Positions 11,796 through 33,822 of a stretch of DNA of 36,274 bases are shown here, one piece after another. The stretch covers positions 1 through 36,274 of the forward strand of contig CAMKES010000017.1 in the NCBI GenBank assembly GCA_946411635.1, read 5' to 3'. The stretch's first letter is position 1; every line of letters starts with the position of its first letter. A program made the translations under genes and the position numbers. Origin of the DNA: an uncultured Clostridia bacterium. GTDB lineage: Bacteria; Bacillota; Clostridia; Christensenellales; CAG-138. Below the pieces are notes generated by a model. That model was given only the letters and a program-made list of their open reading frames with translations, was not told the origin of the DNA and did not search any database.

Positions 11796-12842
11796 ATGAT
11801 CGTTTTGCGGGACATGCTCGAATCGGATATCGAGGACTACGTGCGCTGGTTCACGACGGAGACCGAATGGTCGGACTGGGACGCGCCGTGGGAACCGGTC
11901 GATTCGACTGAAGAGGCGGAACGGGAAAGCTGGACGGCGTACTGCGGATCCGTCAAAGACCTTCCGCCCGACGCGCCGCGGCAGAAGTTCGAGATCGAGC
12001 TGGACGGCAGGCATGTCGGCTGGGTCAGCCGCTATTATGACCTCGATTACGTTGAAAATCCAGAGAAGATCCCCGCCGTCGGCATCGACATTCCGGAGCC
12101 GGACGCGCGCGGAAAAGGTGCCGGCACGGAAGCGCTCCGGCAGTTCATCGACTATCTCAAGGCGCACGGCGCGCGCCGCGTGTTCACGCAGACGTGGTCG
12201 GGCAACGTCCGCATGCTGCGCGTCGCACAAAAGCTCGGCTTCGTTCCCTATGCCCGTGTAAAGGGTATTCGCACAGTCCGCGGAAAGAAATACGATGCGC
12301 TGACGCTCAAGCTGGACCTGCTTCCGGAGGAGCGCATGGAGACCGAACGGCTGATCCTCGACCGGATCGAAGAAACCGACAAAGCGGACTATTTCAACAA
12401 CATCTCACACGACAAAAAGGTCCTCGAAACCTTTGTCTGCCGCTATGCGGAGTCGCTCGAGACGTTTGATTTTTCCGCTTATCTCGGACGCGACGATCTG
12501 TTTGCGATCCGCCTCAGATCGACCGGAAAGCTCATCGGGATCATCCTGTATTTCGACGCGAAGGACGGCGCATGCGAGATCGGCTACGGGATCGGCTCGG
12601 CGTACTGGGGCAGAGGATACGTGACCGAGGCGGTCAAACGGTTCCTTTCGTATCTGTTTGACGAAAAGGGCATGCGGCGCGTCCGCGCCTCGTACTTCAC
12701 GGGCAACGATGCGTCGCGCCGCGTGATGGAGAAGTGCGGCATGACGTTCGAACGTTTTTCCGAACGGGAGCTCGAATACCTCGGCGAGATGCGCGATCTC
12801 ACCTATTACGCGATCGACGAAAAGACCTTTCGCGCACCATAA
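11796..12842 (+). CDS. Tandem GNAT acetyltransferase (two domains)
   Basis: 348 residues formed by two GNAT folds in a row. Domain 1, about 1-178, contains VGIDIPEPDARGKGAGTEAL with the acetyl-CoA loop RGKGAG, then NVRMLRVAQKLGF. Domain 2, about 180-340, starts at METERLILDRIEETD, like RimJ/RimL enzymes that acetylate protein N-termini, and carries GYGIGSAYWGRGYVTEAV and NDASRRVMEKCGMTFE. Both acetyl-CoA loops look intact, so both halves may be active. The substrate is unknown: protein N-terminus, antibiotic or small amine. The start at 11796 is set by a strong AAGGAGGAG. It probably shares an mRNA with the flavin reductase upstream or has a weak promoter of its own. Confidence 0.85.
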   Translation: MIVLRDMLESDIEDYVRWFTTETEWSDWDAPWEPVDSTEEAERESWTAYCGSVKDLPPDAPRQKFEIELDGRHVGWVSRYYDLDYVENPEKIPAVGIDIPEPDARGKGAGTEALRQFIDYLKAHGARRVFTQTWSGNVRMLRVAQKLGFVPYARVKGIRTVRGKKYDALTLKLDLLPEERMETERLILDRIEETDKADYFNNISHDKKVLETFVCRYAESLETFDFSAYLGRDDLFAIRLRSTGKLIGIILYFDAKDGACEIGYGIGSAYWGRGYVTEAVKRFLSYLFDEKGMRRVRASYFTGNDASRRVMEKCGMTFERFSERELEYLGEMRDLTYYAIDEKTFRAP

Positions 12843-12890: not shown

Positions 12891-14777
12891 TCAGTTGGAC
12901 TGCGGCGCTTCGGACGCCTGTGCGGCCGGTTCCGCTTTTCCGGCCGGTTCGTCTTCGACGGGCGGTTCGGGTTCCGGTTCGGCCTGCGGCTTCGTCAGCA
13001 GCGAGAAATACCGCTTGTGCGCGCGTTCGTACGCGGCGTTGAACGATTCGTCCCCGCCCGCGTGCAAACGCTCGAAGTACAGATGCTCGTGATCGGCGAG
13101 CTCGGGGTGAACGCGGACGACGGTCGCGACGCCGACGTTCGAGCAGACGTCGCCGATGCGGCGGAACTCGACCATCAGATCGGTGAACGTCGTATCGGCA
13201 TAGGAATTGCACTCGCCGATGCTCATGCGCTTCAGGTGATTCTTCCGCAGCACCGCGATGAGATCGCCCGCGACCTGCACGAGCGGTTCGATCCTTGCCG
13301 CGGCCTCGACGTCGCGCCTTTTGAAGGTCTGTTCCGTTTCGTCGAGGATCTGCATCAGCGCGCTTTCGAGGACCGCGAGCTCCGAGAGCGCGGCCGCGGA
13401 GAACGCCGTACCGTTCTTCTTCATGGATTCGGCGTGCGCTGCGACGTTGACCGCGTGGTCGCCGAGACGCTCGAATTCCGAGTTGACCTTGTAGTACTGG
13501 TTCAGGATCGCGACGTGGTTTTCGATCTGCAGATGCGGCAGGAACTCCACCATATAGCGGCTCACGCAGTCGGTGATGCGGTCGATCTCGTTTTCGTCCG
13601 CGAGCAGCGTCTTGTGCACGGCGGGATCGTATTTGCGGATCAGGCCGAAGGCGCGTTCGATGTTCGTGCGCGCGGCGGAATAGCTCGCAAGCAGCGTGTT
13701 GTAGCAGCTCTGCAGCGCGAGCGCCGGGGTATTGAAGAAGACGGGATTCAGCGCGTCGGTCACGGCCTTGAACCGGCTTTCCTTCGCGGGCTTGTCCTTC
13801 ACGATCTTTTTGCCGAGCGTTTCAAAGAGTCCGAGCATCGGAAGCATCGCGAGCGCGCACACGAGGTTGAAGATCGAGTTCGTGTTCGCGATCATACCGG
13901 AGTTCACGGGCGCGTTCCACAGATCGTCCAGAAGCCCGAGCTGATGCACGACCGTTACGCCGAGAAGCACCAGGATCGATTTGCCGAGATTGTACAGGAT
14001 GTTGATGATGCCGACGCGGCGCGCGTCGCCCTTCGAGCCGATGGAGATGACGATGGCGGTGGTCACGCAGTCGCCCAGATAGATACCGACGATGACCGAA
14101 TAGATCGACTTGAACGTCAGCATCCCGGTCGAGGAAAACGTCTGCAGGATACCGACGGCGGCAGAGGAGCTTTGCAGCGTGAACGCGACGCCCGCGCCGG
14201 TGACGTAGCCCAGGAGCGGGCTCTTGTCGAGCCCCAGGAACAATCCGTCGAACACGCCGGATTCCTTGAGCGCGGAGACCGCGCCCGTCATGTTGAGCAG
14301 GCCCGAGAACAGGATGCCGAAGCCGATCGCGATGTTGCCGACGGAGCGCGCGTTTCTGAAAAAGTTCGCCATGATCAGCACGATGCCGACGATCAGCGCG
14401 ATCGGAGCGAGCGTGGACGGCTGGAAGAACCGCAGCACGGACGAGCCGGAGGCGTTGATGTCGAGCAGACGGATGATCTGACCGGTGACGGTCGTGCCGA
14501 CGTTTGCGCCGACGATGATGCCGAGCGACTGGTGCAGCGTCAGGATCCCCGCGCCGACGAGACCCGCCGTGATCACGATCGTGGCGGTCGACGACTGAAT
14601 GAGCGCGGTGACCAGAAGCCCGAGCACGAACGCCGTCAGGGGGTTGTTCGTCACCCTGCTCATCGCTTTTTTCAGCGTGCCGGAGGAATTTTCTTTCAGG
14701 GAGTCGCCCATGAGCCGCATGCCGTACAGGAACATGGCAAGACCGCCCAGAAGCGAGATCACGTTAAAAACGTCCAT
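12891..14777 (-). CDS. Na+/phosphate symporter family protein with PhoU-like domain
   Basis: 628 residues. The membrane half (about 1-320) contains the two inverted Na/Pi repeats with their hallmark QSS motifs, QSSTATI at 61-67 and QSSSAAVG at 202-209, plus NVGTTVTGQ. It would move phosphate or another anion with sodium. Residues about 340-565 are helical and PhoU-like (FERLGDHAVNVAAHAES, FRRIGDVCSNVGV), as in many bacterial NptA-type proteins, probably regulatory or metal-binding. The last 35 residues are a low-complexity tail rich in Pro, Glu and Ala. The ATG at 14777 has a modest GAGGT site. It is a single gene with its own promoter and terminator. Confidence 0.93.
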   Translation of the reverse strand: MDVFNVISLLGGLAMFLYGMRLMGDSLKENSSGTLKKAMSRVTNNPLTAFVLGLLVTALIQSSTATIVITAGLVGAGILTLHQSLGIIVGANVGTTVTGQIIRLLDINASGSSVLRFFQPSTLAPIALIVGIVLIMANFFRNARSVGNIAIGFGILFSGLLNMTGAVSALKESGVFDGLFLGLDKSPLLGYVTGAGVAFTLQSSSAAVGILQTFSSTGMLTFKSIYSVIVGIYLGDCVTTAIVISIGSKGDARRVGIINILYNLGKSILVLLGVTVVHQLGLLDDLWNAPVNSGMIANTNSIFNLVCALAMLPMLGLFETLGKKIVKDKPAKESRFKAVTDALNPVFFNTPALALQSCYNTLLASYSAARTNIERAFGLIRKYDPAVHKTLLADENEIDRITDCVSRYMVEFLPHLQIENHVAILNQYYKVNSEFERLGDHAVNVAAHAESMKKNGTAFSAAALSELAVLESALMQILDETEQTFKRRDVEAAARIEPLVQVAGDLIAVLRKNHLKRMSIGECNSYADTTFTDLMVEFRRIGDVCSNVGVATVVRVHPELADHEHLYFERLHAGGDESFNAAYERAHKRYFSLLTKPQAEPEPEPPVEDEPAGKAEPAAQASEAPQSN

Positions 14778-14879: not shown

Positions 14880-14908
14880 TTTACGATTCGCCGTTTTTCT
14901 GCTACAAT
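14880..14908 (+). promoter_or_regulatory. Promoter of the lipase-YhhN operon
   Basis: TTTACG (14880-14885), a 17-base spacer and TACAAT (14903-14908). It rules out in-frame start codons upstream of about 14915 for the following gene. Confidence 0.75.
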
Positions 14909-14963
14909 CGACAATGAAATCAAACAGGAAAGGATCCCGCGCAAGCGGGCCGGACGACGACCC

Positions 14964-17753
14964 ATGCGGAAACGCGCTTTCGCTTTTTTACTGATCATAC
15001 TCATGCTTGCCTCGCCGCTGCTTCCCGCGTTTGCGGAAGAACCGGACGAGGACGACCGCGCCGTGCAGCTGGACGTCGAGCAGTTCGGCGTCTATGCCGA
15101 GGTCGAGCGCGACGCGGATCTCGAGCCCGTTTCGGTCAACGGTTATCCGGTCCGGAAGGTGCTGGCGGGGCTCAACGTCCGTTCGGCTGAGGAAGCGTAC
15201 CGGTTCGAGATCTACTTTGTCGACTATCCGTTCTATCGTACGGCAGCCGAGTACGACGGCAACCTTGCCGTCATGTCGCTCGCGATGGCGCTGTCGGCAA
15301 ACCGCGCGCGCAACCTCAAGGACGATCCGGATGAGGACTTCGATCCGTCGCTGCATCTGGAGCGGTATCTGTCCGACGCGGGCTTTGAAAACATCCGGAA
15401 GGACGATTATTCCAAGGAGACCAGCATGTACACCATCTCCACCGCCATGGGCGCGCGGAGAATGGAGCAGCCGGGCGAAGAGCCGTTCACGCTGATCGCG
15501 ATCGGCGTCTGCGGCGGCGGCTATAAAAACGAATGGCAGTCGAACATGACGCCGGGCGACGGCCCGTATCACGAGGGCTTCCTGTCCGCGGCGAATCTCG
15601 TCATCGACCGCCTTGCGGGCTATCTGATGACGAACGGCATCGAGGGACGCGTCAAGGTCTGGATCTCCGGCTTCAGCCGCGCGGCCGCCGTTTCGAATCT
15701 CGTCGCGGGGCTTCTCGTCCGCAACGGCATGCTGAACAATGAGGACGTTTACGCATACACGTTCGCCACGCCCGCCGCGGTGCTCGAGCCGCCGGAGACC
15801 GGATACGAAAACATCCACAACATCCTGAACCCGATGGACCTCGTGCCGCAGGTCATGCCCGCCGACTGGGGCTTCGGCCGCTTCGGCGAAGACCTGTTCA
15901 TCCCGACCACGGAGTTCTCCTCGATCGGCGAAAGCTTCACGGCGTACCGCGCCGCGATCGCGCGGGAGAAATTCGGCGTGGAGGCGAACTACAGTCCGGC
16001 GCTGAACTTCCGCATGCGTCTGCTGCTGTCCATGGTGCTCGACGTTGCCGAAAGCCGCGAGGCGTACAACGCGCGCATGCAGCCGGCGGTGGTCGGTCTG
16101 ATGCGGAACAAGAACGCCTCCAACCTGCTTTCGACCGCGCGCGATCTGCTTCTGACCATGACCGGAAGCGATCGGGAAGGGCGGAGGAATCTCGACGAAC
16201 TGATCGATTACGTGGTGCGCGTCTTCGGCAACGCGCTGACGCGGACGGAGCTCGACGCCGCAAACAGCAACAGCGGCGGCGCGGGATTGCGTCTGTTCAA
16301 CGAGCACCGCGAGGATTCGTATCTTGCGAATATCAATCTGATCCGCAACGGGGTCTTTGAGGACGACCTCACGTTCACGTACGTGCTGATCCGCGGACCC
16401 GTCCGCGTGACGCTGACGAGCTCCGACGTGACGGACGACCGGATCGTCCTGACCGATACGGGCGAGATCCTCTCGGACCGGTTCGTGCGGCATCTGACGG
16501 ACGCCGACCGCGCGGACAGGCTGATCTTTGAGCTTCCGTATTATATGGAGCGAATCGGGAACACGAGCATCCTCGCCGTTCCGAACGACGCCGATTTTCT
16601 GATCACGTGGGAAACCGTAAAGAGCGGCACCGTCGAGGTGCGGCAGGCGACTTGCTCGGTCTTTGCCTCGGCGCGATACGCCGGCGTGCAGTCCGCGTCC
16701 GTTTCGGTTCCGGTCGGCGCGACCGGCGTTGCGTTCCGCTCGGAAAACGGCCGGTCGATCCTGCCGGACGGCTTTACCGAAGCGGTCTTCGACGCGAACG
16801 ACCTCGCGAAGTTCGCGGGCATCGCCTCGATCGGCGTCAACTGGCGCATCGCGCTCATGGTCCTCTGCGCGATCCTCGGGACCGTGCTGACGCTGCTCGT
16901 TTTCGGCGTCATGCACTCGTGGCGCAGCGACAAAAAACTCGGCGTGATCACCTGGCTCTGCCTCGGCGTCTTCTTCATTTCCATGATCGAGATCGAGGCG
17001 GCGTTCTGGTTCCTCGCCGACCGCGTGCTGTACCGTCTGATCTGGAAGGCGGTGATGGGCGCAGCGCTCGTCGCGCTGTATTTCCGCCGCCGCGAACGGG
17101 GCGAACCGTGGAAGGTCAGCCTGTTCCCGGGACTTTTCACGGCGATCCTCGCCGATCTTCTGATCACGGTCAGCTTTCTCGGCGGCGCGGCGCTGTTCCT
17201 CGTCGCGCACGTGTTCCTGATCCTTGCGTTCCGGTTCCGGAAAAAGATGACCAAAAGCAGATGGGTGCAGTGGGGGATCATTTCCGCGGCGCTCGTCGCG
17301 CTGATCGTGGTCGTGTTCGTGCCGCAGAAGGGGCTCTACGCATGGGCGGCGGCGGTGTACGCGCCGGTCGTTCTCCTGATGCGCTGGGCGGGCGGCAGAC
17401 AGACCACGCGCGTCCGGTTCGCGTCGCTGCTGTTCCTGCTTTCGGATTTGCTGCTCGCGGTCTATTTCGCGGTGCTGAGCGAGCCGGTCATTCATATCCT
17501 GTATATGATCCTGTTCTACGTCGCGCTCCTGATCATGGCGGTCGGCGGCGCCGAGGAAAAGCGGCCGGAACCGCTTTCCGACGCGGAGGAGCCGCTTCCC
17601 GAAACGGAAGCGGAGCAGCCGTCTCCGGACGAAGCGCTTCCCGAAGCGCAGCCGGAAAAACGCCGCAGAGCGCGCGGAAAGAACCGGAAGAAAACGAAAC
17701 GCAGACGGGCGAAAGCGGCGAAGACCGCCGAACCCGACGCACAGCGGAGGTGA
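14964..17753 (+). CDS. Secreted lipase-like domain fused to a YhhN-like (lysoplasmalogenase) membrane domain
   Basis: 929 residues. Residues 1-24 are a signal peptide (MRKRAFAFLLIILML..., cut near AFA). Residues about 30-600 lie outside the membrane and contain an alpha/beta-hydrolase core with nucleophile elbow GFSRAAA (Ser238) and NPMDLVPQ (Asp292), as in class-3/Mbeg1-like lipases. From about 625 there are eight or so membrane spans. Conserved-looking points there match YhhN/TMEM86: Lys695 in LIWKAVM, Asp731 in AILADLLIT, His749 in FLVAHVF and Asp828 in LLSDLLLAV. YhhN relatives cleave the vinyl-ether bond of lysoplasmalogens. The tail (875-929) is acidic, then strongly basic. The start is the first ATG after the promoter; its AGGAAAGG site is 29 bases away, with a small hairpin between. 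It forms an operon with the next gene (3 bases apart). The domain names are inferred from motifs. Confidence 0.65.
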   Translation: MRKRAFAFLLIILMLASPLLPAFAEEPDEDDRAVQLDVEQFGVYAEVERDADLEPVSVNGYPVRKVLAGLNVRSAEEAYRFEIYFVDYPFYRTAAEYDGNLAVMSLAMALSANRARNLKDDPDEDFDPSLHLERYLSDAGFENIRKDDYSKETSMYTISTAMGARRMEQPGEEPFTLIAIGVCGGGYKNEWQSNMTPGDGPYHEGFLSAANLVIDRLAGYLMTNGIEGRVKVWISGFSRAAAVSNLVAGLLVRNGMLNNEDVYAYTFATPAAVLEPPETGYENIHNILNPMDLVPQVMPADWGFGRFGEDLFIPTTEFSSIGESFTAYRAAIAREKFGVEANYSPALNFRMRLLLSMVLDVAESREAYNARMQPAVVGLMRNKNASNLLSTARDLLLTMTGSDREGRRNLDELIDYVVRVFGNALTRTELDAANSNSGGAGLRLFNEHREDSYLANINLIRNGVFEDDLTFTYVLIRGPVRVTLTSSDVTDDRIVLTDTGEILSDRFVRHLTDADRADRLIFELPYYMERIGNTSILAVPNDADFLITWETVKSGTVEVRQATCSVFASARYAGVQSASVSVPVGATGVAFRSENGRSILPDGFTEAVFDANDLAKFAGIASIGVNWRIALMVLCAILGTVLTLLVFGVMHSWRSDKKLGVITWLCLGVFFISMIEIEAAFWFLADRVLYRLIWKAVMGAALVALYFRRRERGEPWKVSLFPGLFTAILADLLITVSFLGGAALFLVAHVFLILAFRFRKKMTKSRWVQWGIISAALVALIVVVFVPQKGLYAWAAAVYAPVVLLMRWAGGRQTTRVRFASLLFLLSDLLLAVYFAVLSEPVIHILYMILFYVALLIMAVGGAEEKRPEPLSDAEEPLPETEAEQPSPDEALPEAQPEKRRRARGKNRKKTKRRRAKAAKTAEPDAQRR

Positions 17754-17756
17754 AGC

Positions 17757-18326
17757 ATGATCCCGTCTTTGATCCTGAATGCAGCGATCGTTCTGATCAT
17801 GATCGGCTGCCTCGTCTGGGGACTGATCAAGGCAAGACCCAGACGCAGACTGTTTTACTATTTCACGACGCTTTCCAACGTGCTCTGCGCGATCGCGGCG
17901 CTCGCCGTCTGCATCACGCGGCTCTGCGGGGTGCTTCCGTTCTGGGCGCTGCTTCTGAAGTATGCCGGCACGGCGGCGGTGACGGTCACGATGCTGACGG
18001 TCCTGCTCTTTCTCGGTCCGGTCTCGAAGGACTGGAAGGGGCTTCTGTCCCGCGCGGATCTGTTTCTGCATCTGATCAATCCGCTGCTCGCGCTCGTGTC
18101 GTTCCTGTTCTTTGAAAAGACCGCGATGCCCGCGTGGACGATCGCGGTCGGCACGGCGCCGGTCGTTCTGTACGCGATCCTGTACTGGTACAAGGTCATC
18201 CGCGCGCCCGAGCCGTGCCGCTGGGAGGATTTCTACGGCTTCAACGCCGGCGGCAAGTGGCCGCTGAGCATCGGCGCGATGCTTGCTGCCGCCGCGCTGA
18301 TCGCGTTCGTGCTCTGGATCGTCTGA
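17757..18326 (+). CDS. AIG1/ADTRP-like (Pr6Pr family) membrane protein
   Basis: 189 residues with six hydrophobic segments. The pattern YYFTTLSN near the end of the first span and LFLHLINPLLAL in the fourth fits the Pr6Pr / FAR-17a / AIG1 superfamily. Human AIG1 and ADTRP of this superfamily are membrane threonine hydrolases of fatty-acid esters of hydroxy fatty acids, with a Thr and a His as key residues. Here Thr38 (three residues before Asn41) and His105 occupy the corresponding places. It may therefore hydrolyse a lipid ester within the membrane (inference; the bacterial members are uncharacterised as far as I know). The ATG at 17757 follows GGAGGTGA, 3 bases after the stop of the lipase-YhhN gene, so the two proteins are made together. 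Confidence 0.65.
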   Translation: MIPSLILNAAIVLIMIGCLVWGLIKARPRRRLFYYFTTLSNVLCAIAALAVCITRLCGVLPFWALLLKYAGTAAVTVTMLTVLLFLGPVSKDWKGLLSRADLFLHLINPLLALVSFLFFEKTAMPAWTIAVGTAPVVLYAILYWYKVIRAPEPCRWEDFYGFNAGGKWPLSIGAMLAAAALIAFVLWIV

Positions 18327-18340
18327 AAAACGAAAGCAAA

Positions 18341-18367
18341 AAAAGACGGGGGAAGGCCCCGTCTTTT
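18341..18367. terminator. Bidirectional terminator of the lipid operon and the GT2 gene
   Basis: An 11-base-pair stem AAAAGACGGGG/CCCCGTCTTTT with loop GAAGG, and seven A on the left, so it works on both strands between convergent genes. Confidence 0.92.
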
Positions 18368-18378
18368 CGTTTTGTCCG

Positions 18379-21009
18379 TTACCGCCGCGCTTCGAGCTCG
18401 AGCAGCTTTTCGGTCACGCGCCGGCAGTTTTCCGCGTCGCGGAAGGCGAAGAACCCGTCGATGCGCGCGCGGTACGCGTCCTTGAGCCGGCAGCCGTTTT
18501 CCATGTATTCGATCAGCCGGTCGACCGTCGCGCCGTATTCCGTTTCGACCTCGCCGAAGCCGTCGCGCGCGTAGTCGAAATAGCCCTTCACGTACACGTG
18601 CTCGCCGGAATAGAACGTCTCGCGGTCAAACTGCGCGTACACGACCGGTTTTCCGAGATACGCGAAGTCGAACGCGACCGAGGAATAGTCGGTCAGGATG
18701 AGATCGCTTTCCGCGAACACCTTCCGGTACGGCGTGTCGGCGGGCAGGATCGCGACCGCGTCGTTTTGCGTGAACAGCCCGACGTGCGGCTGCAGCATCG
18801 GATGCGGCAGGAACTGCAGACGGTAACCGAGCCGTTTCGCCGCCGCGATCAGGCGTTCGTCGTTCAGGAGCGCGTCGTAAAAGCGGAAGAACGCGCTTTC
18901 CGGAAATCCCTTCCGGAGCGCGCGCGCGCCGGTGGACGGATCCGCGTCCGACGTGAGGCCCTGCCGCCAGGTCGGCATGATCGTGACCGTCCGCGTTTCA
19001 CCGCGGTACAGCCGGTCGAACCGCGGCAGTCCGGTGAGCCAGATCGCCCCGTCCGCGTAGCCGTACGCGCAGTCGCGGATCGAATCCGCCTCGGCCTTCG
19101 CCGAGGTCACAAAGCCGGCGATGTTGCAGCGGAAGCGGTTCAGCCAGCCGGACAGGTCGTCCTTGATCACGCCGTGCTGCAGGAACACGAACGGGATGCG
19201 GTTTTCGATGTCGCGGTACGGCGCGTTCCACTTCGAGAACGGCGTGACGACGTCGCTGTCCGCGTGCGAGGAGATATTGAGATCCGAAAGCAGATACCGG
19301 AGCTTGTGCCGGAACGATTTCGCGGGCACGACGCGCCCGATCTTTTTCAGCGCGGCGAAGTCTTCCGATTGCCCGGAGACCGCGAAGTACAGCCGCGCGG
19401 GCTTCTTTTTCAGCGAGCGGAGGTACCGGAACAGCGCCTCGCCGTTGTCGCCGGCGCAGCGCGTACGGTCGGACAGCAGCCACACCGGCCGCCGCTGAAA
19501 CGGCTTGCATACCGCGTACACGAGCCTTCCCGCGACCGCGTTGCGTCCGCCGGGGAGGTTCTTTTTCCAAAGCTCTTTCAAAAAACGCACTTCCCGCAGG
19601 AACCGTCCGCGCTTTCGCCCGGCCAGCGTCAGCACGCCGTCCGCGAGCGTCAGCATGCGCGATCCGATCACGGCGTACGCGTGCGCATACGTTTCGGACA
19701 GCGGGAAGAACTGCCCGCATTCCACCGCGGTCACCGGCGCTTCGCCCGACGCGGTCCTGCGCAGGATCCGCATGACGAGCGGCGCTTTTCCGTCGGGCAG
19801 CGGCACGCGGAACGCGTAACGGAAGACCCTTGCCGCGGGCTCGTCGAGCAGGATCCGCGGCTGACGGAGATCCTCGCGCACGCCCTCGACGCGCGCGCCG
19901 TTCGCCTCGAGCACGTAATCGGGCGGCGTCGTTTCGCCGGGCAGCTGCAGCGCCGTGCATTCGAGCGTGACGGATTCGCCGCGCACGGTGAAGAACGCGA
20001 GATCCAGCGGTCCGCGGCACGCTTCGCGGTACGCCTCCGGCACGGTCCCGTGCTTCAGCGCAAGCGCAAAGCCGTTCTGATACGGCAGAAGCTCCGTCTG
20101 CGCCGCGATCACGTCGTCGTCCAGATACGAGTACGCCTCTTTGAGCAGCGCCTTGTACGACGCCTTTTCCTCCGCGCCGAACAGGGCGGAGGGGACGTGC
20201 TCGCGCATGCGCCACTGCAGGTCGTACGCGACCGTGTGCTGCACGAACGCCGGCACGGCGCCCTCGCGTTCGACGCAAGCGCGGAGCGTATCGAGGGCGA
20301 AGCCTTTGAGATACGGATGGTACCACGCGGGCGACTGACCGGAGGTCTGGATCGCGCTCGCCTCGCCCTGCGAGCGGCGGCGGTAGAAATGCGTCGCGTC
20401 GGAAACGACGCCGAGTGTCTTTTTTCCGAGCAGGAGCGACTGCAGAAACTTTGCGTCCTCGGCGTACTTCAGGGTTTCGTCAAACCGCCTGCCCGAAAGC
20501 GCCGCCGCGCGCGCGAACGCGCTCGTCACCGCAAGCTGCGGATTTTTGGGCTCTTTTTGCAGATCGATCACGCGCGAGCCGCGGCCGTATTTGAAGTTCA
20601 GCAGATGCGGACCCTTCGCGCCGTCGAAAAACGTCATCGGCAGCGACACGACGTCCGTTTCGGGATGCGCCTCGAAGAACGCGAACACCTTCGAAAGCGC
20701 GTTTTCGGAAAGCAGGTCGTCCGCGTCCAGAAAGCTTACGTATTTGCCGCGAACGCGCGAAAGACCTTCGTTGCGCGCGGAAGACACGCCGCCGTTTTCC
20801 TTGTGCACGACTTCGACGTTTTCGGGATACCGCTCCGCGTACGCGTCGCACATGCCGCCGCTTCCGTCGGTCGAGCCGTCGTCGACGAGGATCAGCTGCA
20901 CGCGTGAAAAGCCGAGATCCTGCCGGAGCAGGCTTTCGACGGTTTCTCCGAGAAACGGAGCGGCGTTGTATACGGCCGTAACGACCGAAAAATCATAGGC
21001 GTCCTTCAC
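18379..21009 (-). CDS. GT2 glycosyltransferase fused to CDP-glycerol glycerophosphotransferase (TagF-like)
   Basis: 876 residues, cytoplasmic face of the membrane. Residues 1-250 are a GT-A family 2 transferase (FSVVTAVYNAAPFLGETVES, LVDDGSTDGS, GGVSSARNEGL, SFLDADDLL). A middle part of about 250 residues has a beta-rich stretch I do not recognise. Residues about 505-870 are a TagB/TagF-type domain (VFLQHGVIKDDLSG, IMPTWRQ, LTDYSSVAFDFAYLGKPV), which in teichoic-acid synthesis adds glycerol- or ribitol-phosphate from CDP-alditols. One protein could thus add a sugar and a polyol-phosphate to a wall or capsule polymer. The start is a GTG at 21009 behind GGAGGAG. A terminator-like hairpin sits 20 bases upstream. 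No other tag genes are adjacent. Confidence 0.9.
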   Translation of the reverse strand: MKDAYDFSVVTAVYNAAPFLGETVESLLRQDLGFSRVQLILVDDGSTDGSGGMCDAYAERYPENVEVVHKENGGVSSARNEGLSRVRGKYVSFLDADDLLSENALSKVFAFFEAHPETDVVSLPMTFFDGAKGPHLLNFKYGRGSRVIDLQKEPKNPQLAVTSAFARAAALSGRRFDETLKYAEDAKFLQSLLLGKKTLGVVSDATHFYRRRSQGEASAIQTSGQSPAWYHPYLKGFALDTLRACVEREGAVPAFVQHTVAYDLQWRMREHVPSALFGAEEKASYKALLKEAYSYLDDDVIAAQTELLPYQNGFALALKHGTVPEAYREACRGPLDLAFFTVRGESVTLECTALQLPGETTPPDYVLEANGARVEGVREDLRQPRILLDEPAARVFRYAFRVPLPDGKAPLVMRILRRTASGEAPVTAVECGQFFPLSETYAHAYAVIGSRMLTLADGVLTLAGRKRGRFLREVRFLKELWKKNLPGGRNAVAGRLVYAVCKPFQRRPVWLLSDRTRCAGDNGEALFRYLRSLKKKPARLYFAVSGQSEDFAALKKIGRVVPAKSFRHKLRYLLSDLNISSHADSDVVTPFSKWNAPYRDIENRIPFVFLQHGVIKDDLSGWLNRFRCNIAGFVTSAKAEADSIRDCAYGYADGAIWLTGLPRFDRLYRGETRTVTIMPTWRQGLTSDADPSTGARALRKGFPESAFFRFYDALLNDERLIAAAKRLGYRLQFLPHPMLQPHVGLFTQNDAVAILPADTPYRKVFAESDLILTDYSSVAFDFAYLGKPVVYAQFDRETFYSGEHVYVKGYFDYARDGFGEVETEYGATVDRLIEYMENGCRLKDAYRARIDGFFAFRDAENCRRVTEKLLELEARR

Positions 21010-30812: not shown

Positions 30813-30950
30813 ACATCTTTTTTATCAGGATGTTGCAAATCGTCCGCATCCGTGTGATAGGATGGATCATCCCCGAAGGCTTCCCGCGGGGAGGGCGGCC
30901 CGCGAAGCGAAACGGACCGGGGCTTTCGGATGAAATGCAGGACCGCCGCA

Positions 30951-30979
30951 TTGACGGGATCCGGCGGAAATGGTATACT
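30951..30979 (+). promoter_or_regulatory. Promoter of the MBOAT-DHHW-RCC1 operon
   Basis: TTGACG (30951-30956), a 17-base spacer and TATACT (30974-30979). The transcript would start near 30986, after the upstream ATG at 30930, which therefore cannot be the start of the next gene. Confidence 0.85.
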
Positions 30980-31004
30980 GAATCTTCAGGAGGATGTTCG
31001 GGAT

Positions 31005-32399
31005 TTGGTTTTTTCGGGGCTGACGTTTTTATTGATTTTTCTGCCGCTGCTGCTGCTTCTGTATTTCGTGCGCGGCAGCATGCGCTGGCGCAACGGCGTT
31101 CTCGTCGTCTTTTCGCTGATCTTTTACGCGTGGGGCGAACCGATCATGGTGCTGTTGCTCGCGGGAACGACGCTGCTGCACTATTTCTGCGCGCGCAAGA
31201 TCGCGTCGACGAAGCGGACGGGGGAGCGGAAGCTCTGGCTTGCGCTCGCGGTGTTCGGCTCGCTGTCGGCGCTGTTCTGGTTCAAATACGCGGGCTTCGC
31301 GCTCGGCACGGTGCTGGGCATCCCGTTCACGCCGCCGCGGCTTCCGATCGGCATCTCGTTCTATACGTTCCAGATTTTGACCTACACGATCGACGTGTAC
31401 CGCGGCCGCGTGAAGTCGCAGAAGCGCTTCTTCCGTCTGCTGCTGTACGTGAGCTGCTTCCCGCAGCTGATCGCGGGTCCGATCGTGCAGTACGCCGACG
31501 TGCGCAAATCGCTTGCGAAGCGCGAAACGACGACGGTGGATTTCGGCGCGGGCATGCAGCGCTTCTTCGTCGGTCTCGGGAAAAAGGTCCTGATCGCGAA
31601 CATCTGCGGCAAGGCGCTCGAGGAATGCGCCGTCGGCGCGCAGCCGTACTCGTTCACCGGCGCGTGGATCTCGGGACTCCTGTTCACCCTGCAGCTCTAC
31701 TTTGACTTTTCCGCGTATTCCGACATGGCGATCGGCCTCGGGCGCGTGCTCGGCTTCACCTACCGCGAGAACTTCCGGTATCCGTATCTGTCGCGCTCGG
31801 CGAGCGAGTTCTGGCGGCGCTGGCACATTTCGCTCGGCGAGTTCTTCCGCGATTACGTGTACATTCCCCTGGGCGGCAACCGCAAAGGACGGCTCCGCAC
31901 GGTGCTGAACCTGCTGATCGTCTGGGCGCTGACGGGGCTCTGGCACGGCGCGGCGTGGAACTTCATCCTTTGGGGGCTGTACTGGTTCGTGCTCCAGCAG
32001 ATCGACAAGCAGTTCGCTTCGGTCTGGAAGCGGTTCCCGAAGGGGCTTCTGTGGCTCGGCACGTTTCTGCTCTCGCTGATCGGCTGGGTGCTGTTCTATC
32101 ACGCCGAGGGGCTTGCGGGCGCGGGCGCGCATCTCGGAGCGCTGTTCGGCATCGGCGCGAGCGGGCTGACCGACGCAAAGACGCTTGCGGTGCTCGCGCG
32201 CTACGCGCTGTATCTGCCGATCCCGCTCGCCGCGAGTTTTCCGATCGTTCCGGCTGTCCGCCGCTTCTTTGCAAAGCGCGACCGGCTTGCGGGGTTTTAC
32301 GCGCCGCTTGCCGCGATCGCCGCGGTCACGATCGGGATCGTGTCGCTGCTGTTTTTGATCGGGCAGAGCTACAATCCGTTTATCTATTTCCGGTTCTGA
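31005..32399 (+). CDS. MBOAT family O-acyltransferase (AlgI/DltB type)
   Basis: 464-residue polytopic membrane protein. It takes acyl (usually acetyl) groups from a cytoplasmic donor and passes them across the membrane to an exported polysaccharide or wall polymer. Seen: LPIGISFYTFQILTYTIDVYRG, SCFPQLIAGPIVQY, LYFDFSAYSDMAIGLGR, FWRRWHISLGEFFRDYVYIPLGG and the catalytic-His motif GLWHGAAWNF (His314). The start is a TTG at 31005: the family begins MVFSS-TFL, here TTG-VFSGLTFL, with AGGAGG 11 bases before. The ATG at 30930 lies upstream of the promoter. It is first gene of a three-gene operon with a DHHW partner, the usual two-part arrangement for alginate-like O-acetylation. Confidence 0.93.
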   Translation: MVFSGLTFLLIFLPLLLLLYFVRGSMRWRNGVLVVFSLIFYAWGEPIMVLLLAGTTLLHYFCARKIASTKRTGERKLWLALAVFGSLSALFWFKYAGFALGTVLGIPFTPPRLPIGISFYTFQILTYTIDVYRGRVKSQKRFFRLLLYVSCFPQLIAGPIVQYADVRKSLAKRETTTVDFGAGMQRFFVGLGKKVLIANICGKALEECAVGAQPYSFTGAWISGLLFTLQLYFDFSAYSDMAIGLGRVLGFTYRENFRYPYLSRSASEFWRRWHISLGEFFRDYVYIPLGGNRKGRLRTVLNLLIVWALTGLWHGAAWNFILWGLYWFVLQQIDKQFASVWKRFPKGLLWLGTFLLSLIGWVLFYHAEGLAGAGAHLGALFGIGASGLTDAKTLAVLARYALYLPIPLAASFPIVPAVRRFFAKRDRLAGFYAPLAAIAAVTIGIVSLLFLIGQSYNPFIYFRF

Positions 32400-32409
32400 G
32401 GGAATGCGT

Positions 32410-33822
32410 ATGAAACACCGATTCACGTTTTATCTGACGTACGCCTGCGTGGTGCTGTTCGGCATGCTGGGCGTTCTGCTTCTGCTGTTCGGCGAGAAAT
32501 CGCCGCGTCCGTCCGAGGAGGAAAACCGCACGCTGGCGGGATTTCCGGACTTTTCGTTCGGCGCGGTCGCCGACGGCAGCTTCATGCGCGGCATCGAGGA
32601 CTATCTCTCGGACGGCATGCCGGGGCGCGGCCGCATCGTGTCGAAGACCGCGGCGTGGCTCGGCGCGCTGTCGGTGGCGAACGGGGACGAAGAGGACGTG
32701 AACGCGTTCGAAGCGGTCGAGGCGTTCGGCGAGGGCGACGACGAACCGGATCCGGTCCTGACGCCCGCGCCCGACGGGGACGAGATCATCGTGCCCTCCG
32801 AAACGCCGTCGGCGGCGCTTCCCACGCCTCCGGAACCGACCGAAACGCCGCAGCCCGCGGAAACGCCTTCGCCCGACGGCTCGCAGACCCCGCGGGAGAC
32901 CGCGTCGCCGAAGGTCCCGGTCGAGATCAGAACCTGCAAGTTCCGCCAGCTCCGCGCGGACGGCACCGCGCGCGAGCCGTACACGTTCGACAAGGACGCG
33001 ATCAACAACGCGATCGGCGTGTTCAACGCGTTCCGCGACGCGCTGCCGGAGGACGGACACGTGTTCTTTACGCAGATCCCGTTCCCGGAGATCGCGTTCA
33101 GCCTGCAGGACGGCAAGTACGTCGGCTGGGAATGCGAGCTCGAGGCGATGCTCGAGGCGAACACGAAGGAGGGCGTGATCGTGGTCAGCACGCTCGACGT
33201 GCTCGAAGCGCCGCTTCTTGCGGGCGAGGATCTGTACTTCCGGACCGACCACCACTGGAAGCCGCGCGCGGCGTGCTACGTGGCGCAGGCGATGCTCGAC
33301 CGCATCGGGATCAAGGCGCTCGCATACGACGACTATACCTATAACCACAACAGCGGCTTCTACGGGTCCAAGGTCAGCGGCAATCCGGAGCTCAAGCAGA
33401 CGCTCCCGCCCGACACCGTCGAGGTCATGGTCCCGTCGCTGCCGGTCAAAGGCTACGTGATCGACTGGGACGGCAGCGAACGCTCCACCCCGTTCATGGT
33501 CACGGACCGCGCGTCGTACCGCGCGTATCTGAACGGCACGGTCGGCCCGTGGCGGCGCTACGAGACCGGCGTGGACTGCGGCAGAAAGGCGCTCGTCATC
33601 GGCGATTCGTACATCTGCTGCTTCGTGCCGTACCTCACGCCGTACTACGAGGAGGTCCACACGACCGACCTTCGCAAGGATTACTACGACGCGTCGCACC
33701 GCACGTGGACGATCCGCGAGTACATCGAAAAGAACGGGATCGACGACGTGTATCTGATCCTGTCCACCGCGTCCGGACTGAATTCGGACTATCTGAAGAC
33801 CTATCTGAAAAAGTATTTCTGA
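32410..33822 (+). CDS. DHHW family protein (AlgX/AlgJ-like, SGNH-type O-acetylation partner)
   Basis: 470 residues. N-terminal signal anchor (FYLTYACVVLFGMLGVLLLLFG), then an extracellular part. A Pro/Thr/Glu-rich linker at about 115-170 (TPAPDGDE, PTPPEPTETPQPAETPSP) interrupts the fold. The catalytic Asp-His pair is in TDHHW at 279-283 and the nucleophile in GDSY (Ser400), giving the SGNH/DHHW set. It accepts acyl groups from the MBOAT protein and places them on a glycan outside the cell. Two ATGs compete: 32404 touches the GAGGGA site, while 32410 is 6 bases away and is preferred. The gene is 10 bases behind the MBOAT gene. Confidence 0.9.
   Translation: MKHRFTFYLTYACVVLFGMLGVLLLLFGEKSPRPSEEENRTLAGFPDFSFGAVADGSFMRGIEDYLSDGMPGRGRIVSKTAAWLGALSVANGDEEDVNAFEAVEAFGEGDDEPDPVLTPAPDGDEIIVPSETPSAALPTPPEPTETPQPAETPSPDGSQTPRETASPKVPVEIRTCKFRQLRADGTAREPYTFDKDAINNAIGVFNAFRDALPEDGHVFFTQIPFPEIAFSLQDGKYVGWECELEAMLEANTKEGVIVVSTLDVLEAPLLAGEDLYFRTDHHWKPRAACYVAQAMLDRIGIKALAYDDYTYNHNSGFYGSKVSGNPELKQTLPPDTVEVMVPSLPVKGYVIDWDGSERSTPFMVTDRASYRAYLNGTVGPWRRYETGVDCGRKALVIGDSYICCFVPYLTPYYEEVHTTDLRKDYYDASHRTWTIREYIEKNGIDDVYLILSTASGLNSDYLKTYLKKYF

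Follow-up and report, generated by a model that had tools for sequence, protein, structure and literature searches.

Proteins of the YhhN/TMEM86 family (PF07947) are lysoplasmalogenases, lipid enzymes of bacteria and mammals that cross the membrane eight times with both termini on the inside. As far as the available text of two reports goes, no member had been crystallised by 2022, and Lys, Asp, His, Asp and Tyr were proposed as the active-site residues of Mycobacterium tuberculosis YhhN (PMC9052158); in human TMEM86A and TMEM86B, seven out of eight conserved positions lost activity when changed to alanine, with less than 10% remaining in the K43, D82, D190 and Y213 mutants of either enzyme (TMEM86A numbering throughout; PMC11994398). 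Here we analysed a 36,274-nucleotide stretch, referred to as the window (contig CAMKES010000017.1 of assembly GCA_946411635.1; Clostridia; Christensenellales; CAG-138), in which positions 14880-18367 hold the gene of a lipase-YhhN fusion protein, P0001, followed by a second membrane protein gene, P0002. An earlier note made from the sequence alone had read the pair as a two-gene membrane lipid-degrading unit.

We consider it fairly probable that P0001 acts on its own as a lipase or esterase exposed at the cell surface, where a membrane domain of YhhN descent that lacks the standard active site serves as its tether. The apparent signal peptide would export the N-terminal alpha/beta-hydrolase head, which could use Ser238-Asp292-His448 to cleave acyl esters, be it in lipids on the external side of the membrane or in those of the gut fluid. 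Drawn with nine spans, the C-terminal YhhN bundle keeps Lys695 and Asp731 and adds Glu678 and His844, all four drawn beneath the lipase head; its probable role is to anchor the head and to bind or present lipid, and not to split vinyl ethers. P0001 would thereby indicate that rumen and gut bacteria have a class of lipases tethered to their surface.

Domain architecture and distribution of the fusion

Pfam placed Lipase_3 (PF01764; residues 195-300, 33.3 bits against a cut-off of 22) and YhhN (residues 691-860, 61.7 bits against 25.6) on a single chain, which bears out the fusion and the YhhN assignment of the C-terminal spans proposed in the earlier note; P0001 is the sole YhhN match at E 0.001 in its own genome (2.06 Mb, 95.7% complete). 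The architecture is conserved in relatives: among 103 genomes of the family, the fusion was found in 13 of 23 same-genus genomes including its own (in G070 it is in pieces, with a broken frame and a contig end), and as a distant copy in G002 from another genus. Among 395 genomes drawn from the order, a draw that leaves most of the genus outside, near-full-length matches to the fusion alignment A2 (described below) occurred only in G000 and G077. The lipase-YhhN fusion was not found in the titles and abstract openings of the papers searched that mention YhhN, and we therefore regard it as a new architecture that combines known families and has a newly conserved residue set.

Scanning 84,980 species genomes with two short peptide patterns, which may miss divergent copies, yielded 45 loci, 30 of which form, together with the window protein, alignment A2 (31 rows); L117 and L120 were left out for broken frames, and L133-L143, L145 and L146 as not being full-length fusions. 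Five rows are uncounted in the membrane part, four being partial (L108, L119, L121, L130) and one carrying another tail (L132), so that 26 complete rows remain. Eleven A2 loci (L102-L110, L116, L124) very probably are the records of the genus relatives and not independent of alignment A1. The fusion records are mostly metagenome-assembled genomes, many from rumen or gut, and their labels, which can be wrong, include Clostridia, Erysipelotrichaceae, Oscillospiraceae, Bacilli, Spirochaetales and others.

All 31 rows match Lipase_3 at E 0.01, and Ser238, Asp292 and His448 are each invariant in them. The nucleophile elbow with Ser238, as well as Asp292, lie where the earlier note had located them, and His448, which it had not named, is the candidate third member of a predicted Ser238-Asp292-His448 triad; judged by these residues, the lipase part looks fully working. 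The note had further expected a Lipase_3 or Mbeg1-like match, of which the first was recovered and PF11187, which we take to be the Mbeg1-like family, was absent among the Pfam matches of P0001. Mean pairwise identity across the 26 rows amounts to 55% in the lipase core (residues 80-330), 34% in residues 331-470, 27% in the linker and 30% in the membrane part. In the Protein Data Bank (PDB), the lipase part (profile positions 188-304) matched the diacylglycerol lipase 5xk2 best (E 2e-4) and also 1tgl (E 0.01); apart from sequences with lipase names, the search to E 1 gave membrane transporters, none better than E 0.4. P0001 has the nucleophile elbow, the Asp and a candidate His in common with class-3 lipases such as diacylglycerol and fungal triacylglycerol lipases, but differs from them by its polytopic C-terminal domain and a linker stretch without Pfam match.

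YhhN was matched by 21 of the 31 rows at E 0.01 or better, and a profile of nine more distant fusion tails matched the ordinary YhhN profile with 98.1% probability. The membrane domain can be drawn as nine spans running from N-out to C-in, namely an extra leading span followed by eight; six of these came from a hydropathy threshold scan and the other three from manual placement, which makes the topology a proposed one. Positive charges sit in the loops 648-658, 707-715 and 755-767 and in the tail, all on the cytoplasmic side of this drawing, and together with the apparent signal peptide they agree with an external lipase and an internal tail. Compared with YhhN/TMEM86 lysoplasmalogenases, the fusion scores above the Pfam cut-off in matching register and keeps the Lys and the first Asp, but it sits behind a probably secreted lipase and has an extra leading helix.

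Three further proteins (L171, L172 and L173, from G373, G381 and G211) have the same kind of lipase head on another C-terminal tail of three to five predicted spans, with no YhhN part found in the A2 profile search, Pfam not having been run on these three; L141 has a lipase head with a one-span tail, as judged by eye. Membrane tails of this lipase family thus seem to have been exchanged.

Active-site residues and the plasmalogen link

At the five positions proposed for the M. tuberculosis protein, the window protein has Lys695, Asp731, His749, Asp828 and Phe851, the first four at the positions given in the earlier note and the last replacing Tyr. Of the eight residues tested in TMEM86A and TMEM86B, the two Gly are Ala here and Ser827 is kept. 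The equivalents of K43, D82, D190 and Y213 are all kept in one of the 26 complete fusions (L127), as are D82, D190 and Y213 taken together, and all eight tested residues in none. Conservation of Ser238, Asp731 and Asp828 had been anticipated in homologues; it holds for Ser238 (31/31) and Asp731 (Asp in 25 of 29 A2 rows with a letter there and in 23 of 26 complete rows) and breaks down at Asp828, where Asp occurs in 10 of 26 complete rows, the window included, next to Glu in eight, Asn in four and another residue in four.

Other YhhN proteins served as controls and were taken by match position alone: the 29 best-scoring solo loci, 11 domains fused to dehydrogenases, and 16 low-scoring solo matches (24-54 bits), which score below the window domain, include L190 that hardly resembles YhhN, and were added since a comparison with high scorers alone may be too lenient. 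D82, D190 and Y213 are kept together in 29/29 solo and 11/11 dehydrogenase-fused domains (40/40 high-scoring) and in 13/16 low-scoring ones, and Tyr occupies the Y213 position in 40/40 and 16/16 of these, respectively, compared with 6/26 fusions. The Lys43 column depends on the alignment in the controls (Lys in 19/29 solo rows or in 40/40), and no control claim rests on it. By this comparison, the YhhN domain of the fusion looks mostly devoid of the standard lysoplasmalogenase site and unlike a normal lysoplasmalogenase. A natural fusion of this kind, with the family pattern kept and the conserved polar residues swapped, provides an internal contrast for telling which residues define a lysoplasmalogenase.

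The fusions have a conserved polar set of their own, consisting of Glu678 (26/26), Lys695 (25/26), Asp731 (23/26) and His844 (24/26). Glu678 precedes the Pfam core and has no aligned residue in any of the 56 control YhhN, and His at the His844 position occurs in only 4/40 high-scoring and 2/16 low-scoring controls. In the drawn topology, these four residues would lie near the outer helix ends, with H749, D828 and F851 deeper. One may tentatively picture a remodelled YhhN domain, a rhodopsin-like bundle whose deep site (His, Asp, Tyr) was lost after the fusion to a secreted lipase and whose new shallow site at the outer face, built from Glu678, Lys695, Asp731 and His844, works with the lipase head as a second lysolipid hydrolase or as a gate that passes lipid from the bilayer to the lipase. 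That the membrane domain is an anchor only, its remaining conserved residues being structural, seems unlikely: such a role would agree with the different tails of other lipase heads (L171-L173, L141) and with the drift of the YhhN active-site residues, but the conservation of Glu678, Lys695 and His844 at about 30% mean identity seems to exceed what a bare anchor would need.

The earlier note had also envisaged a phospholipase combined with a lysoplasmalogenase, and a bifunctional enzyme of this kind can be conceived without the second gene, in which a plasmalogen would lose its sn-2 acyl chain to the head and the lyso product would have its vinyl ether split by the YhhN part; we hold this to be rather improbable. 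It would be in keeping with the retention of Lys695, Asp731, His749, Ser827 and Asp828 in the window protein, and also with the lipase being drawn outside, as the available text of one report names the periplasmic side as the one from which lysoplasmalogen gains access to YhhN (PMC9052158). All five YhhN site residues (Lys, Asp, His, Asp, Tyr) are present in the distant fusion L127 (9875-12433, in a record labelled Spirochaetaceae); the ancestor may accordingly have had activity, and L127 is possibly an ancestral, still bifunctional form. Set against these points, the window protein has Phe where, in the text available, a change of Tyr to Ala leaves less than 10% activity (PMC11994398), and the D190 equivalent is changed in 16 of the 26 fusions.

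The bifunctional idea was further confronted with the occurrence of plasmalogen synthesis. As marker we used PF09989, which we take to indicate a plsA-type plasmalogen synthase and which was matched in the control genomes of Thermus, Deinobacterium, Thermotoga and Lactococcus; two matches from other genomes carried DUF2229 and BcrAD. PF09989 had no match in the window's own genome (95.7% complete) nor in the remaining 12 genomes of the genus that have the fusion, and was present in 8 of 29 fusion-bearing records overall (L111-L115, L117, L118, L129), which makes these records a better test ground for bifunctionality than the genus of the window. D190 retention and the marker are linked only weakly (5/9 versus 2/16, Fisher p 0.058, kinship uncorrected). 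Dimethylacetals suggest plasmalogen-type lipid in the rumen, according to the available text of one study (PMC3587585), so that an outside source of substrate is possible. In summary of that earlier proposal, the fusion itself stood and the bifunctional mechanism was weakened, because residues essential in TMEM86 are changed in 25 of 26 complete fusions, the Tyr of the window protein is Phe, and PF09989 is absent from the fusion-bearing genomes of the genus.

In the lipase-head tree, 29 fusion rows and a truncated one lie on one side of a branch (support 91/90, below the star threshold), and in the membrane-domain tree 26 fusion rows are set apart from 26 ordinary YhhN (100/99, bootstrap not settled), the latter having been picked, in a biased choice, by a pattern requiring GD and SD motifs. 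A single fusion event is possible.

Several observations weigh against regarding P0001 as a tethered lipase whose YhhN domain has lost its standard site. The Lipase_3 score of 33.3 bits is modest, and sequences in the PDB are matched only weakly (best E 2e-4). Low-scoring solo YhhN vary as well, with His at H104 in 2/16 and Ser at S189 in 8/16, so that only the contrast at D82, D190 and Y213 is telling. The window protein keeps five site residues (Lys695, Asp731, His749, Ser827, Asp828) and may on that account have lysoplasmalogenase activity; Glu678 and His844 could form a second catalytic site rather than only handle lipid; and PF09989 does occur in those 8 of 29 fusion-bearing records. With all 56 controls in the tree, low-scoring ones included, the fusions still fall on one side of a branch, at a support of 43 in a quick search. 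The tethered-lipase reading is supported, in turn, by the related lipase heads in which a different membrane tail occupies this position, and by the finding that no neighbour is widely shared outside the genus. What separates the window protein and its relatives from described lysoplasmalogenases is the change of Tyr to Phe in the window, the change of the second Asp in 16/26 fusions, and the new conservation of Glu678 and His844.

The second gene and its adjacency to the fusion

P0002 had been assigned to the AIG1-like hydrolases by a Thr38/His105 pattern and was to be compared with AIG1 and Pr6Pr models. AIG1 (PF04750) did not match P0002 at E up to 1, its sole match in the genome lying elsewhere and being weak (16.4 bits), and Pr6Pr (NF038065) scored 20.5 bits, below the curated cut-off of 30, with 16 of 28 P0002 homologues matching that model at E 0.01. 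We provisionally describe P0002 as a Pr6Pr/MAGa3780-like membrane protein that scores under the NCBIfam cut-offs. In an alignment of P0002 with 27 hand-picked homologues, the proposed His105 proved invariant (28/28), whereas the conserved Thr is Thr37 (28/28) and not Thr38 (13/28). Thr37 and His105 recall the Thr/His pairs T47/H131 of ADTRP and T43/H134 of AIG1 given in the available text of PMC8123165.

The two open reading frames are separated by 3 bases and framed by one promoter-like and one terminator-like site (both pattern matches), as first noted, and P0001 and P0002 are probably co-transcribed in the window genome. This layout would suit a two-gene membrane lipid-degrading unit in which the Pr6Pr-like protein contributes a third activity, yet we judge such a unit highly improbable in view of the relatives. 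Each of the 12 same-genus relatives that have the fusion carries its P0002 orthologue on a different contig, and the pair was seen adjacent only in the window genome, an outcome that the earlier note had named as speaking against its proposal; adjacency is decidable in 11 of the 12, as the assemblies are mostly fragmented and in G075 both genes are at contig ends. The fusion stops at a contig end in G056, G075 and G076; upstream of the second gene, however, G056 and G076 offer kilobases of sequence in which no fusion is matched. In G077, assembled in about 20 contigs, both genes are well inside large contigs. P0002 relatives occur in 53 of the 103 family genomes, including genomes without the fusion.

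Two of eight P0002 neighbourhoods inspected (L051-L058) adjoin a divergent Na/Pi cotransporter gene: in G072 and G061 (L055 and L057), the P0002 orthologue lies 142-143 bases from it, with no fusion between. In the window, the fusion sits exactly between the cotransporter and P0002 (12891-18326). The interval between cotransporter and fusion measures 186 bases; the sole match to these relatives is a stretch of 36 bases inside the cotransporter's own start, the intergenic part has no match to them, and the cut points cannot be refined. We read the arrangement as a lineage-specific insertion of the fusion gene into a divergent promoter region. Seven genus relatives have one other downstream gene in common beside the fusion, so the placement in the window is probably the derived one. 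Outside the genus, no neighbouring family occurred in more than 4 of 23 sources, apart from the related Erysipelotrichaceae loci L126 and L144, which have many genes in common; the upstream genes there were inspected directly, as automated gene calls misassigned some frames in this G+C-rich DNA.

A conserved two-gene system was thus rejected on the contig positions in the 103 family genomes and on the fusion-free sites in G072 and G061, and P0002 is probably a chance neighbour in this lineage. This negative part matters, since an attractive two-gene operon turns out to be a local rearrangement.

Feature coordinates, related YhhN proteins and neighbouring genes

Table 1 Positions of the features at and beside the lipase-YhhN fusion gene, numbered along the window.
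Feature	Position	Strand	Basis or remark
Sigma-70-like promoter	14880..14908	+	TTTACG-17-TACAAT with TG; 9/12, pattern match only
Lipase-YhhN fusion gene P0001, 929 aa	14964..17753	+	Start backed by homologues starting at the same place
Apparent signal peptide (residues 1-24) with a possible cleavage site following AFA	14964..15035	+	Sequence reading and hydropathy
Lipase_3 core, residues 195-300; elbow G-F-S238-R-A and Asp292	15546..15863	+	Pfam, alignment
His448, proposed third triad residue	16305..16307	+	31/31 rows; putative role
Linker stretch, residues 471-615	16374..16808	+	No Pfam match in the window protein
YhhN-family membrane domain and leading helix, residues 625-860	16836..17543	+	Pfam YhhN 691-860, charge pattern
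Glu678, fusion-specific invariant	16995..16997	+	26/26; no aligned residue in 56/56 other YhhN
Lys695, equivalent of TMEM86A K43	17046..17048	+	25/26
Asp731, equivalent of TMEM86A D82	17154..17156	+	23/26
Asp828, equivalent of TMEM86A D190, not conserved in relatives	17445..17447	+	10/26
His844, fusion-specific conserved	17493..17495	+	24/26
Phe851 in place of the essential Tyr (TMEM86A Y213)	17514..17516	+	Tyr in 6/26 fusions
P0002, 189-aa membrane protein, MAGa3780/Pr6Pr-like, Thr37/His105	17757..18326	+	Neighbour, not conserved partner
Intrinsic-terminator-like hairpin	18341..18367	+	Pattern match only
Na/Pi cotransporter, context gene	12891..14777	-	Lies divergently beside the P0002 orthologue in two relatives without the fusion at this site

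In the same order, at least 11 YhhN domains are fused to an iron-type alcohol dehydrogenase (L090-L100, in G272, G411, G115, G462, G302, G256, G233, G383, G358, G245 and G362), six of them to this enzyme alone and five with an additional aldehyde dehydrogenase (11/11 by Pfam). Long YhhN frames were considered as further lipase fusions and rejected: among the matches listed, the 12 exceeding 600 aa are the 11 dehydrogenase fusions and a spurious frame on a solo YhhN in G077. The dehydrogenase fusions resemble P0001 in that YhhN forms a module within a long fused chain, but differ in that YhhN is N-terminal and D82, D190 and Y213 are kept in 11/11; the four domains placed on the tree fall among solo YhhN. 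The kept site would fit a channelling of the aldehyde, and such a fusion likely converts lysoplasmalogen on one chain into a fatty alcohol or acid. No description of YhhN-dehydrogenase fusions was found in the literature searched, and they may merit separate study.

Low-scoring solo YhhN of the order (L177-L192) have Gln or Asn in the place of H104 in 12/16, Cys at S189 in 7/16 and the Tyr in 16/16, which suggests a second, different drift of the site.

Other genes of the window include, at 18379-21009 on the minus strand, a single protein with a family-2 glycosyltransferase and a CDP-glycerol glycerophosphotransferase domain, perhaps a maker of a teichoic-acid-like polymer by its domain content. 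A 348-aa GNAT protein, in which two acetyltransferase stretches were matched, is encoded at 11796-12842 (plus strand). At 30930-33819 (plus strand), an MBOAT acyltransferase is followed by a DHHW/AlgX-like protein, an arrangement that we take to resemble polysaccharide O-acetylation pairs.

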